56,878 nucleotides of DNA from Pseudomonadota bacterium. Lineage in GTDB: Bacteria > Pseudomonadota > Gammaproteobacteria > Burkholderiales > Burkholderiaceae_C. Shown piece after piece: positions 11,418 through 15,171 of the stretch. The position numbers and the translations under genes were made by a program. The DNA lies in NCBI GenBank assembly GCA_018241185.1, contig JAFEEH010000230.1, positions 1-56,878 of the forward strand. The letters run 5' to 3'. Numbering within the stretch: the first letter of the stretch is position 1; the number at the start of each line of letters is the position of its first letter. Below the pieces are notes generated by a model. The model was given only the letters and a program-made list of their open reading frames with translations, was not told the DNA's origin and made no database searches.

Positions 11418-12059
11418 CTACCAGCGCAGCAAGCGCGGGCCGATCAGCGCCCCCGCTGCCATGGGCAACGCCATGCCGAGCACGTACCACACCGCCAGGA
11501 ACGGCGCCGTGAGCTCCGGGCAATGCAGGGCGTACACGGCCGCGCCCGCACCCGCGGCCAGCGCCCCGGCAGCGGCGCCGGCTGCAGCCGGCCGCGTCGG
11601 GGCCAGTCCACGCAGCGCCAGCAGGGCGGCCACGAACATCGGCAGCGAGATGAGCGCGATGTTGAAGACACAGGTGCGCCAGGTCTGCCCCATGAGCGCG
11701 GGCATGCGCGCCGTCTCGGGCATCGTCGCCCACCCGACCCCCGCCAGCACCCAGACCGCCAGCACGGGCAACGCGATGCCAAGCCAGGCGCGACGCACCG
11801 CCACGCCCGGCCGCGCCAGCCGCTGCACCATCACATAGCCGGCCGCGCCGATGCACGCGGGCATCAGCACCTTGACCCAGAACATCGGCCAGAACATCGC
11901 CTGCACGATGTCGCGGCGCATGCCGTATTCGGTCTGCATGATGGCCAGCGCCAGGGGCAGGCTCAGGCCCAGCGCCCACCACAGGCGGCGGCTGACGGCG
12001 CGGCGCGGCACGGGCTCGGCCCCGGCGGCCAGCATGGCCACGAAATCGTCGGTCTTCAT
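11418..12059 (-). CDS. nrsF: NrsF-type (DUF1109) membrane anti-sigma factor
   Basis: The 213-residue protein has a short cytoplasmic N-terminus ([16 protein letters not shown]) followed by six predicted membrane helices, which is the DUF1109/NrsF layout. NrsF proteins hold SigF-type ECF sigma factors inactive at the membrane until a signal such as metal or oxidative stress releases them. The ATG at 12059 overlaps the sigma gene stop by 4 bp, so the two are co-translated. Two Cys are present, one in a helix (TCVFNIAL) and one in the last third (ALHCPEL). Whether they sense metal or redox state is not known. Confidence 0.85.
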
Positions 12060-12604
12060 GTCGCGTCCTTGCGCATGCGCGCCGCCAGCGCCTTCAGGCC
12101 GCGATGGATGCCCACCTTCACCGCCGACTCCGACATGCCGGTGAGCTTGGCCGTCTCGGCGACGGACAGGCCCTCGAGCTTGACGTGCACGATCGGCAGC
12201 CGGTGCCGATCGGGCAACTCGGCCAGCAGCCCCTGCACATCGCGCCGCGCGTCGCTGGCCTCGGTGGCCGAATCGGCGAAGAGTTCCATGTCGTCATCCA
12301 GCGGCTCGTGCAGCGCCTCGCGCACCGACTTCGCGCGCAGCAGGTCGATGAGCTTGTAGCGTGCGATCGCATGCGCCCAGGCCGTCAGGGGCTGGTCGCT
12401 CTGGTAGGTGTGACGCTGGTTGTGCATGGCGAGCAGGCATTCCTGGACGAGGTCTTCCACATCATCGGGCCAGCCGAACAGGCGCCTGCCGAGAAAGGCG
12501 CGCAGATGACGCGCCAGCTGTTGCAGGCAATCGCGGTAGGCGGCGGCATCTCCCTGCAGGCCACGCACGAACAGGCCGCGCAACTGCGTCTCGACCTCGC
12601 TCAT
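12056..12604 (-). CDS. sigF: ECF RNA polymerase sigma factor (SigF type)
   Basis: This ECF sigma factor has 182 residues from the ATG at 12604. Region 2 includes [17 protein letters not shown] and [20 protein letters not shown]; region 4 includes [40 protein letters not shown]. An upstream in-frame ATG at 12637 lies inside the spacer of the putative autoregulatory promoter (12627-12653). The transcript would start after that ATG, so 12604 is the better start. The gene is paired with an NrsF-type anti-sigma gene and is divergent from a bufferin-like operon that carries the same promoter motif. This predicts that SigF activates both directions. Confidence 0.9.
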
Positions 12605-12626
12605 CGGGGACTGGCTTGTGTTGGTT

Positions 12627-12653
12627 GTTCGTGGCATGGCACCGGCGGGTTAC
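12627..12653 (-). promoter_or_regulatory. ECF-type promoter of the sigma/anti-sigma operon
   Basis: On the minus strand GTAACC (12653-12648) and CGAAC (12631-12627) are separated by exactly 16 bp. The same pair with the same spacing faces the opposite operon at 12698-12724. GTAACC-like -35 and CGAA-like -10 boxes suit SigF-type ECF promoters. Transcription would begin near 12620, giving a short leader before the ATG at 12604. Confidence 0.75.
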
Positions 12654-12697
12654 AGCAGCCGCGCTGGAATTTTTCGGCGCGATTGTGCACGCCGCTG

Positions 12698-12724
12698 TAA
12701 CCCGGCCAGCGCGGACACCCGAAC
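12698..12724 (+). promoter_or_regulatory. ECF-type promoter of the bufferin-like operon
   Basis: GTAACC (12698-12703) and CGAAC (12720-12724) are separated by 16 bp, matching the divergent promoter. Transcription would start near 12731, about 60 bp before the precursor gene at 12793, which has a TAGGAG ribosome-binding site just upstream. Two identical box pairs in opposite directions over fewer than 100 bp are unlikely by chance. Confidence 0.78.
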
Positions 12725-12792
12725 TAGGGAGGACCGCGCCGGCCGGCAGGTTCTTCGATCCCTTCGTTTTCCAACCCTCTCTAGGAGTTCCC

Positions 12793-13080
12793 ATGACCCA
12801 ACGCACCCTCGCCATCACCACCCTCGCCCTCGCCGCCCTCGCCAGCGGCGCCGCCATGGCCCAGGACAAGCCCATGGGCGACAAGATGGCCACCATGGAG
12901 AAGTGCTACGGCGTCTCCATGGCCGGCAAGAACGACTGCGCGGCCGGCCCCGGCACCACCTGCGCCGGCACGTCCAAGACCGACTACCAGGGCAATTCCT
13001 GGAAGAACGTGCCCGCCGGCACCTGCACCACCATCAAGACGCCCAAGGGCATGGGCTCGCTGACGCCGATCAAGTCCTGA
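12793..13080 (+). CDS. bufA: Bufferin-like RiPP precursor (DUF2282, BufA type)
   Basis: This small secreted protein of 95 residues has an N-terminal signal peptide (cleavage likely after ASGAAMA, residue 23). The mature part has four Cys, at 38, 49, 57 and 78, in the contexts [20 protein letters not shown] and AGTCTT. This is the DUF2282 pattern. Bufferins of this type, described in Caulobacter, are modified at Cys by the neighbouring MNIO enzyme and bind copper in the periplasm. The gene is first in an operon with the MNIO enzyme, its partner and a DoxX protein, under a putative SigF promoter. The metal bound here is an inference from the family. Confidence 0.9.
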
Positions 13081-13097
13081 TCGTCCCGGCGTCCGCC

Positions 13098-13940
13098 ATG
13101 TCCGCACTGTTGTCCTCTGGCCTGGGCCTCAAGCCCGAGCACTTCGACGCCGCGCTCGCCGCCCGCGCGCCGGGGCTCTGGTTCGAGGTTCATCCGGAGA
13201 ACTACAGCGTGGCGGGCGGGCCCCGCCTGGCATGGCTGGAGGCCATCCGCCGCCAGCATCCGCTGTCGCTGCACGGCGTGTCGCTTTCGCTCGCAGGCGA
13301 GGCGCCGCCCGATGCGCGGCAGCTGCAGCGGCTCGCGGCCCTGGTGCGGCGCTTCGAGCCCGCGCTGGTGTCCGAGCATCTGGCCTGGTCGCGCTTCGAC
13401 GGCGCCTACCTGCCCGACCTGCTGCCCTGTGCGCGCAGCCATGCGCTGCTGCGGCGCATGGTCGACCACGTCGACCAGGTCCAGCAGGCCCTCGGGCAGC
13501 GCATCGCCATCGAGAACCCGTCGCACTACCTTCACCTGCCCGGCCACGACTGGGAAGAGACCGAGTTCCTTCGCGAACTGGCACGACGCAGCGGCTGCGG
13601 GCTGCTGCTGGACATCAACAACGTGCATGTCTCGGCGCGCAACCTCGGCTTCGATGCCAGGGGCTACCTCGATCGCTTTCCAGCCGAGGCCGTGATGGAA
13701 ATCCACCTGGCCGGTCACACGGCCGATCCGGTGCATGGCGACGCGCTGCTGATCGACTCGCACGACGCACCGGTGGCGCCTGCCGTGTGGTCGCTGTACG
13801 CGCACTTCGTCGAGCGCGCCGGGCCGCGGCCGACACTGGTCGAACGCGATGGCAACCTGCCCGCCTTCGATGAGCTCATGACCGAGCGCGAGCAAGCCGC
13901 TGCGATCGCCGACGGCCTCGCCACGGGCGTACCGGCATGA
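13098..13940 (+). CDS. bufB: MNIO-family (DUF692) peptide-modifying iron enzyme, BufB type
   Basis: This TIM-barrel enzyme of the MNIO/DUF692 family has 280 residues. Likely iron ligands and nearby conserved residues are visible: His59 (SLHG), His94 (SEHLAW), Glu129 (IENP), Asp172 with Asn174/175 and His177 (LDINNVHV), His203 and His207 (EIHLAGH), His222-Asp223 and Glu249. MNIO enzymes use a multinuclear iron centre to oxidise Cys residues of a precursor peptide, for example to thiooxazole or oxazolone groups. It starts 17 bp after the precursor gene and overlaps the next gene by 4 bp. The substrate is very likely the protein encoded just upstream. Confidence 0.92.
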
Positions 13941-14710
13941 CGACCCTTCAATCCTTCGAGCGGGACTTCGTCGGCGCGTTGTTCGCCGAGCGGACCGAAG
14001 GCGCTGCGGCGCCCGATTGGGCCGCCCAGCCGGGCTTCGCGGTCTACCGCAACACCGTCCACAAGGGCTGCATCGACGCGCTGGAGGCCAACTTCCCTGC
14101 TGTCGTGCGGCTGGTCGGTCGCGACTGGCTGCGCGCGGCCGCCGCCCGGCACGTGGCCGCGCACCCGCCGCGCGACGCCTGCCTGCTGCACTACGGTGAA
14201 GGCTTCGCCGACACGCTGGCCGAACTGGCCGGCGACGAACTGCCCTACCTGTCCGGCGTCGCGGCGCTCGACCGCCTGTGGACCGCATCGCACACGGCCG
14301 CCGATGCTCCCGTGCTGCCGGCCGACGCATTGGCCGGCCTGGCGCCCGAGGCGCTGGCGGGCTTGCGCCTGCCCCCGCATCCCGCCGCGCGCTGGTACGC
14401 GTCCGAGACGCTGCCGCTGCACAGCATCTGGTCGGCCAACCGCAGCGGCGACGCAGCCGCGCTGGAGGCGCTCGAGGCCATGGACTGGGCCGGCGAAGGC
14501 ACCCTGCTCACACGTCCGATCGGCGAGGTGATCTGGCAGCCGCTGCCCGTCGGCGGCTGCACCTTCCTCGACGCCTGTGCGCGCGGCGACAGCCTGGGTG
14601 AGGCCGCCGCCACGACGCTCGACGCCCACCCCGACACCGACCTTGCGGCCCTGCTCGCCCAACTGCTGCAGGCCGCCGCCTTCACCACTTCACCAGGGAG
14701 CCCACCATGA
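13937..14710 (+). CDS. bufC: DUF2063-type partner protein of the MNIO enzyme (BufC)
   Basis: The 257-residue protein has the DUF2063 N-terminal domain ([37 protein letters not shown]), which is found beside DUF692 enzymes and is thought to bring the precursor peptide to the enzyme. The C-terminal half is less conserved. It overlaps both the MNIO gene and the DoxX gene by 4 bp, so the three are co-translated. No catalytic motif is seen, consistent with a recognition role. Confidence 0.88.
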
Positions 14711-15171
14711 AATCCGCCACCACCCCGACCGTCCCTTCCGGCGCCTGGGAGCGCCTCGCCCAGCGCCTGGGCGCGCTGGTGCCGCACGACCTGCTGGCGC
14801 TGGTCGACCGCGTCGCCATCGCTGCCATCTTCTGGCTCTCGGGCCGTACCAAGGTCGACGGCTGGCTGCACGTCACCGACGGTGCGATCGAGCTGTTTCG
14901 CACCGAATACAAGCTGCCGCTGGTGCCGCCCGAGATCGCCGCGCACCTGGCCGCCTACGCCGAGCACGCCTTCCCGATCCTGCTGGTGCTGGGCCTGTTC
15001 ACGCGCTTCGCCGCGCTCGCACTGCTGGGCATGACGCTGGTGATCGAGGTCTTCGTGTACCCCGACGCGTGGCCGACCCACCTGTCATGGGCCGGGTTGC
15101 TGCTGTACCTGGTGGGCCGCGGTGGCGGGCGGCTGTCGATGGACCGCCTGCTGCGCCTCGACCGATCGTAA
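14707..15171 (+). CDS. DoxX-family membrane protein of the bufferin-like operon
   Basis: This 154-residue membrane protein has four predicted helices and the DoxX start region ([21 protein letters not shown]). DoxX proteins commonly accompany DUF2282-DUF692-DUF2063 genes; their role there is not settled and may concern membrane redox or export of the modified peptide. It overlaps the DUF2063 gene by 4 bp. The TAA stop at 15169 is the first codon of a 64-bp repeat also found at the end of the gene at 3-128. Confidence 0.85.

Follow-up and report, generated by a model that had tools for sequence, protein, structure and literature searches.

Introduction

In Caulobacter vibrioides, the genes of the extracytoplasmic function (ECF) sigma factor SigF and its anti-sigma factor NrsF go together with CC3254–CC3257, which we take to be the founding bufferin 1 (Buf1) operon. 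The promoters of CC3252–CC3257 were shown by rapid amplification of cDNA ends (5′RACE), primer extension and reporters; the SigF consensus GTAACC-N16-CGAA is taken from that work, which also reported stress-dependent SigF release and derepression of the regulon on replacement of the NrsF cysteines C131 and C181 (PMC3511200). In Caulobacter, sigF, nrsF and the buf genes respond to copper with induction, and disruption of sigF (sigF::Tn5) makes the cells sensitive to the metal (PMC8224329). Bufferins and captophorins are copper-associated thiooxazole peptides of the ribosomally synthesized and post-translationally modified type, encoded with an MNIO enzyme and a DUF2063-type partner (PMC12668002, PMC12452194); in Buf1, the central Cys residues are reported to be modified and the outer pair to form a disulphide (PMC12452194). 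In Cupriavidus metallidurans, gigPABT and rpoQ-rsqA point away from each other, and gigPABT is induced by copper and gold (PMC10304878); the gig promoter had not been identified, and control by RpoQ was only assumed (PMC10304878, PMC13192273). A gig-like operon of Legionella also responds to gold and copper (PMC5413113). Here, we analyzed positions 11418..15171 of a DNA stretch of 56,878 nucleotides (nt), contig JAFEEH010000230.1, referred to as the window. This locus very probably holds a Buf1 bufferin operon under a dedicated SigF/NrsF switch of the ECF16 type, forming a copper-responsive two-promoter circuit in a Xenophilus species.

Gene content and arrangement of the locus

The locus consists of the following features (lengths in amino acids, aa):

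11418..12059, minus strand: nrsF, membrane anti-sigma factor, 213 aa (PF06532)
12056..12637, minus strand: sigF, ECF sigma factor, 193 aa (ATG 12637) or 182 aa (ATG 12604)
12628..12653, minus strand: SigF-type promoter facing sigF, GTAACC 12653-12648, spacer 16, CGAA 12631-12628
12654..12696, no strand: 43-bp gap between the −35 hexamers, with an A/T run at 12668-12674 and GATTGTGC at 12681-12688
12697..12723, plus strand: SigF-type promoter of bufABCD, GTAACC, spacer 17, CGAA
12793..13080, plus strand: bufA, Buf1 bufferin precursor, 95 aa (PF10048)
13098..13940, plus strand: bufB, MNIO bufferin maturase, 280 aa (NF050167, PF05114)
13937..14710, plus strand: bufC, DUF2063 MNIO partner protein, 257 aa (PF09836)
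14707..15171, plus strand: bufD, DoxX family membrane protein, 154 aa (PF07681)

The gene set and coordinates given by a first-pass annotation made from the sequence were correct: in profile searches, all six proteins scored above the Pfam gathering thresholds of the expected families. The precursor, described there as a DUF2282 protein with four Cys, reached 89.1 bits with PF10048 (gathering score 22.4) and carries Cys38, Cys49, Cys57 and Cys78, which are invariant across 46 aligned precursors. Its N-terminus is hydrophobic and, judged by eye, signal-like, ending in AMA|Q; AGGAG precedes the start codon at 12783-12787, and bufA is the sole DUF2282 match of the genome.

The annotated MNIO, DUF2063 and DoxX genes were likewise borne out by profile hidden Markov models. 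BufB passed the cutoff of NCBIfam MNIO_BufB NF050167 (357.1 bits, cutoff 310), scored 326.9 bits with PF05114 (MbnB_TglH_ChrH) and aligned with the structures 3bww, TglH 8hci and MbnB chains, with His, Glu and Asp residues present in the aligned motifs. BufC scored 69.5 bits with PF09836 (gathering score 27.2) and gave a confident AlphaFold2 model, with a predicted local distance difference test score (pLDDT) of 93.5. Among the 68 Foldseek matches listed for this model, three reached E ≤0.001, namely the TglHI chains 8hci_A and 8hi7_A, which are of partner length, and NGO1945 (3dee); the predicted fold matches that of the TglHI partner. BufD reached 67.6 bits with PF07681.

On the regulatory side, both Sigma70 r2 and r4_2 domains were found in SigF above their gathering scores, and NF009188 (PRK12536) was passed with 307.4 bits (cutoff 250). 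NrsF, the only match of its kind in the genome, scored 240.8 bits with PF06532 (DUF1109). Its Cys130 and Cys180 are invariant across 23 aligned homologues (alignment A1); in ECF16 systems, this Cys pair is thought to be periplasmic.

As annotated, sigF-nrsF on the minus strand is divergent from bufABCD on the plus strand, with an intergenic region of 155 bp. At the sigF stop, 4 nt also belong to nrsF. That the buf genes form one coupled operon holds for bufB-bufC and bufC-bufD, which share 4-nt ATGA overlaps, but bufA and bufB are 17 nt apart. The annotated match with the bufferins was upheld: the genes and their order, the identity of BufB, the four cysteines of the precursor and the SigF-type boxes all agree with a Buf1 locus under SigF/NrsF control.

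Extrapolating from the orthologues, NrsF would hold SigF at the membrane until a signal in the periplasm, for which excess copper sensed through the two conserved NrsF cysteines is the most likely candidate, sets it free, and RNA polymerase with SigF would then fire both divergent GTAACC/CGAA promoters. BufB together with its partner BufC would oxidise Cys49 and Cys57 of BufA to thiooxazoles, a Cys38–Cys78 disulphide would form after Sec export, and the mature peptide of about 71 residues would bind copper in the periplasm, with BufD as a putative membrane helper. For the inducing metal and the Cys modification, which the first-pass annotation had left open, copper and the central Cys have been reported for orthologues.

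The closest named NrsF relatives, among the best 80 of 576, belong to Xenophilus sp. E41 (95% identity) and X. aerolatus (91%; strain DSM 19424), and a Xenophilus species is the most likely host. The genes flanking the locus, for a HerA-like helicase and a GTP cyclohydrolase II, look unrelated to it.

Divergent SigF-type promoters

The boxes had been annotated as shared by the two operons. SigF boxes do exist for both, but as two separate boxes of one consensus. The target-side box ahead of bufA has a spacer of 17, compared with the N16 of the consensus, and places the predicted transcription start about 62 nt before the bufA ATG.

In the whole genome, GTAACC-N15-18-CGAA was matched exactly seven times and the reversed control pattern 16 times; therefore, the overall number of boxes is no more than expected by chance. 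Two of the seven, however, lie in the single 155-bp intergenic region between sigF and bufA, which is beyond chance. The remaining five sit in frames that stay open for 228 codons or more between stops, a criterion that discriminates poorly where DNA is GC-rich, and the SigF regulon of this genome may comprise little beyond the sigF/buf locus. One of these five, at L008 1501-1526, has an A/T run beside its −35 hexamer and aims at a possible lipoprotein gene that is divergent from a TetR-type gene; it may be a further promoter.

A/T runs of at least 6 within −25 to −6 of the −35 hexamer were present at 66% of 126 boxes from 63 loci, compared with 1.6% of 630 random windows from the same loci, which are mostly coding sequence rather than other promoters. 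The run looks like an UP element. The octamer GATTGTGC sits 8 bp ahead of the bufA −35 box and recurs at a spacing of 7-8 bp in about ten listed loci at the place where others have the A/T run. A search for RNA families gave two matches, both far below the gathering scores.

We also considered a helical phasing of the paired −35 boxes, since the gaps seemed to cluster near 33, 43 and 55 bp. This is not claimed: with 63 of 78 pairs kept after removal of near-copies, the periodicity statistic was about the same (0.49-0.53) whichever period of 9.5-11.5 bp was taken (gaps <65 bp), and longer gaps of 81-114 bp, which also occur, speak against it. We think that the zero p-values of this test come from the single peak at 43 bp.

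Occurrence in other genomes

Scanning 399 genomes of the family for the divergent pair gave matches in 45 and a true overlapping pair in 34. Next to the pair, sigF was found in 33 of the 34 two-sided loci, and a DUF2282 gene lay opposite in 27 of them (tblastn). A wider set combined the family, plasmid and window loci with the best 80 of 576 confirmed relatives from an NrsF alignment scan of genome contigs, and yielded 114 loci with a sigF match. The exact pair was present in 75, an exact sigF-side box in 102 and an exact target-side box in 78 (counts in which locus L070 was missed).

Across 63 non-redundant pairs, the gene recognised first on the opposite side was bufA in 42, and a cytochrome b or MxKDx-repeat gene of an MsrP-like cassette in 13. 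The others were MNIO (2/63), DoxX (2/63), ArsS-like (1/63) and unrecognised (3/63), the last class including L092, which does have bufA, out of view through its orientation. The neighbourhood of bufA with bufB and bufC recurs in most bufferin loci compared. In a sample of 150 family genomes, DUF2282 was detected in 88 and NrsF in 26, and 20 of the 26 with NrsF also had DUF2282.

According to a 2025 survey, sigma and NrsF genes occur in Buf1 and not in Buf2 clusters. Contrary to this pattern, SigF/NrsF modules were also encountered beside precursors of the Buf2 and HvfA types. In L101 (4067-6720) and L184 (1351-4066), sigF-nrsF and DoxX are followed by a BufA2 precursor (96.4 and 99.7 bits, cutoff 60) with an MNIO protein above the BufB cutoff, and L101 has an additional exact SigF box directly ahead of the BufA2 gene. 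In an Accumulibacter metagenome-assembled genome (L146 3989-5326), the SigF pair faces an HvfA-type repeat precursor with an HvfB enzyme. The comparison makes it testable whether, in departure from what has been published, Buf2 and HvfA-type metallophores are under the control of SigF modules.

The cassette of L082 contains an MsrP-related protein (76.6 bits, under the cutoff of 207) and an MxKDx repeat protein (85.0, cutoff 41). Loci L083 (from 4085), L086 (from 4063) and L099 form a diverged SigF/NrsF group in the tree, with paired promoters facing other genes, in L083 an ArsS-like radical SAM gene and in L086 a thioredoxin-like gene (names from translations). One nrsF accompanies bufABCD on a conjugative plasmid of Pseudomonas sp. 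CIP-10 (L267, L073); sigF, a second nrsF and another DUF2282 gene lie about 3.6 kb off on this plasmid. Loss of sigF at L073 was therefore rejected in favour of a split locus.

The listed sigF start codon within the sigF promoter

The listed ATG of sigF (12637-12635) falls in the spacer of the gene's own box, three bases before CGAA, giving the layout GTAACC-N10-ATG-N3-CGAA. This position is occupied by an ATG in 52 of 89 distinct sigF-side boxes with spacer 16, every time in frame and open to sigF, compared with 2 of 92 distinct opposite-facing boxes (Fisher p 1.5e-18, kinship not corrected for). Hosts with this embedded ATG include Comamonadaceae, Burkholderiaceae and Pseudomonadaceae; the trait requires at least 10 changes on a tree of 100 SigF proteins, at least 4 of them forced by well-supported branches. 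Class- and phylum-level searches added 41 NrsF loci, 15 with a box under a relaxed pattern: four are embedded (L238, L240, L243, L246), three have their first ATG 15-17 nt past the −10 (L245, L247, L248), and the remaining ones vary, L239 having an ATG inside the −10 region. As a DNA pattern, the embedded promoter was matched 37 times (33 genomes) over 398 phylum genomes, compared with 30 matches of the reversed control, so that the pattern by itself does not identify such promoters.

At ECF promoters, transcription begins a few bases past the −10, and a SigF-driven sigF transcript would therefore be without the spacer ATG. One reading, which we hold tentatively and regard as the less probable one, is that SigF-driven sigF-nrsF transcripts start inside the coding sequence and could not yield full-length SigF, which would come from a separate upstream promoter. 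On activation, the only products would then be a truncated SigF, or NrsF with no fresh SigF, and the expected positive loop would become a self-limiting one. For this reading speak the fixed, in-frame position of the spacer ATG and the 18 of 40 strictly defined loci without any in-frame ATG/GTG/TTG at 5-29 nt past the −10 (six without one up to 59 nt). Also, two of four plasmid records annotate sigF from the spacer ATG (L268, and L267 with one mismatch in the box), the other two having no exact box within 200 nt. Against the variant with NrsF alone, a consensus search found no sigma-70 promoter upstream of sigF, and nrsF, which overlaps the sigF stop, may need sigF translation.

We give about even chances to the alternative that SigF is translated from ATG 12604, with conventionally positive autoregulation and the spacer ATG unused. 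ATG 12604 is in frame, 23 nt past the −10, and the first ATG/GTG/TTG at least 5 nt after it, so that a SigF of 182 aa is possible. It has a counterpart in the same-genus loci L103-L106 and in Xenophilus sp. E41, though none in X. azovorans L113. Furthermore, many loci without a spacer ATG have their first ATG 14-20 nt past the −10, and sigF and nrsF are copper-induced in Caulobacter (PMC8224329). An ATG at +23 also recurs among loci near the window's group. A conserved alternative start in the whole embedded class was rejected, as start-type codons occupied 29 of 360 places at +5 to +29 and 46 of 400 at +32 to +59, without enrichment. The N-terminal extension shows only a weak codon-position bias: over 53 related pairs, for which no p-value is given, differences numbered 91, 82 and 122 at positions 1, 2 and 3.

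If the self-limiting reading were true, the embedded start codon would change circuit feedback in many beta- and gamma-proteobacteria including the window's host. We found no published description of a sigF ATG within its own promoter, in a search that covered subscription literature thinly; the phrase 'start codon' does not occur in PMC3511200. The start-codon geometry is the part of the locus most worth a bench test, and it becomes testable whether loci with the sigF ATG inside the promoter show the autoregulation that was measured in alpha-proteobacteria.

Assessment of alternative explanations

Several results weigh against a copper-responsive Buf1 circuit. The only NCBIfam match of BufA is BufA2 (22.3 bits, cutoff 60), and its predicted structure (pLDDT 55) is too poor for checking the disulphide. 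No NCBIfam match was found for BufC at E 0.01, and BufD stayed with 46.1 bits below the 80-bit cutoff of NF050144 (HvfX). NrsF remained below the NF042994 equivalog cutoff (168.6 bits, cutoff 300), which we read as falling short of a strict equivalog while membership in the Pfam family stands. Among the 88 family genomes with DUF2282, 68 lack an NrsF match, so SigF control is one option for bufferins and not the rule. In C. metallidurans, finally, deletion of rpoQ raised and did not abolish gig expression (PMC10304878). As to the BufA2 match, the score lies under the cutoff, and BufA has four Cys where Buf2 has six, which argues against a Buf2 assignment.

It is improbable, in our view, that the same genes respond to an oxidant such as reactive chlorine or oxidised thiols, with copper acting only via thiol stress: elsewhere, SigF/NrsF modules with paired boxes do face a cassette of cytochrome b, MsrP-like and MxKDx-repeat genes, and one alpha-proteobacterial ECF16 system coupled to this type of cassette responds to hypochlorous acid (PMC8315932), but the operon opposite sigF here is a bufferin operon. 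Far less likely still, BufA could be a plain periplasmic Cys protein with BufB and BufC acting on another substrate. The modification is known from orthologues, which leaves room for this view; yet bufA stands directly before bufB as the genome's only DUF2282 gene, the bufA-bufB-bufC neighbourhood is widely kept, and modified Buf1 has been reported (PMC12452194). The copper-responsive Buf1 circuit thus remains the preferred explanation.

Comparison with known systems

The first-pass annotation credited the sequence with adding a complete regulatory circuit. The parts are all present, but the circuit is not new, as Caulobacter CC3252-CC3257 has the same genes and consensus: SigF/NrsF and CC3254-CC3257 (CCNA_03363-03366) belong to the same six families, GTAACC-N16-CGAA boxes precede both operons, and the NrsF Cys pair is shared (PMC3511200), Cys130/Cys180 corresponding to C131/C181. 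The bufA leader starts at −61 in Caulobacter and, as predicted from the box, at about 62 nt here (PMC3511200, PMC8224329). Caulobacter has two SigF-controlled DUF2282 genes, compared with one DUF2282 match here. Unlike Caulobacter, the present locus is beta-proteobacterial, has a bufA box with spacer 17 and carries the sigF ATG inside the promoter.

The beta-proteobacterial counterpart is gigPABT-rpoQ-rsqA of C. metallidurans CH34, which has the same layout. Its tblastn identities to the window proteins are 45% for NrsF, 50% for BufC, 59% for BufA, 64% for SigF and 66% each for BufB and BufD. The gigP/rpoQ intergenic region (L070 3482-3567) contains a perfect divergent SigF-type pair with 34 bp between the hexamers; unlike window sigF, rpoQ has its first in-frame ATG outside the promoter, 33 nt past the −10. 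This pair fits control by RpoQ, leaves the raised gig expression on rpoQ deletion unexplained, and makes testable whether RpoQ drives gig from it.

Captophorins and bufferins share the precursor, MNIO, partner and DoxX families with this locus (PMC12668002, PMC12452194), for which such a product is predicted. The ECF16 systems BcrS/AbcS with bcrXQP and Azospira SigF draw their sigma and anti-sigma factors from the families found here and have similar boxes (PMC8315932), but their effectors, a Met-rich peptide and a methionine sulphoxide reductase, handle oxidised methionine, in contrast to the copper bufferin expected here. The locus is real, well supported and ordinary in kind, a further instance of a known circuit: Xenophilus and its close kin have every part of the SigF/NrsF-bufferin circuit described in Caulobacter.

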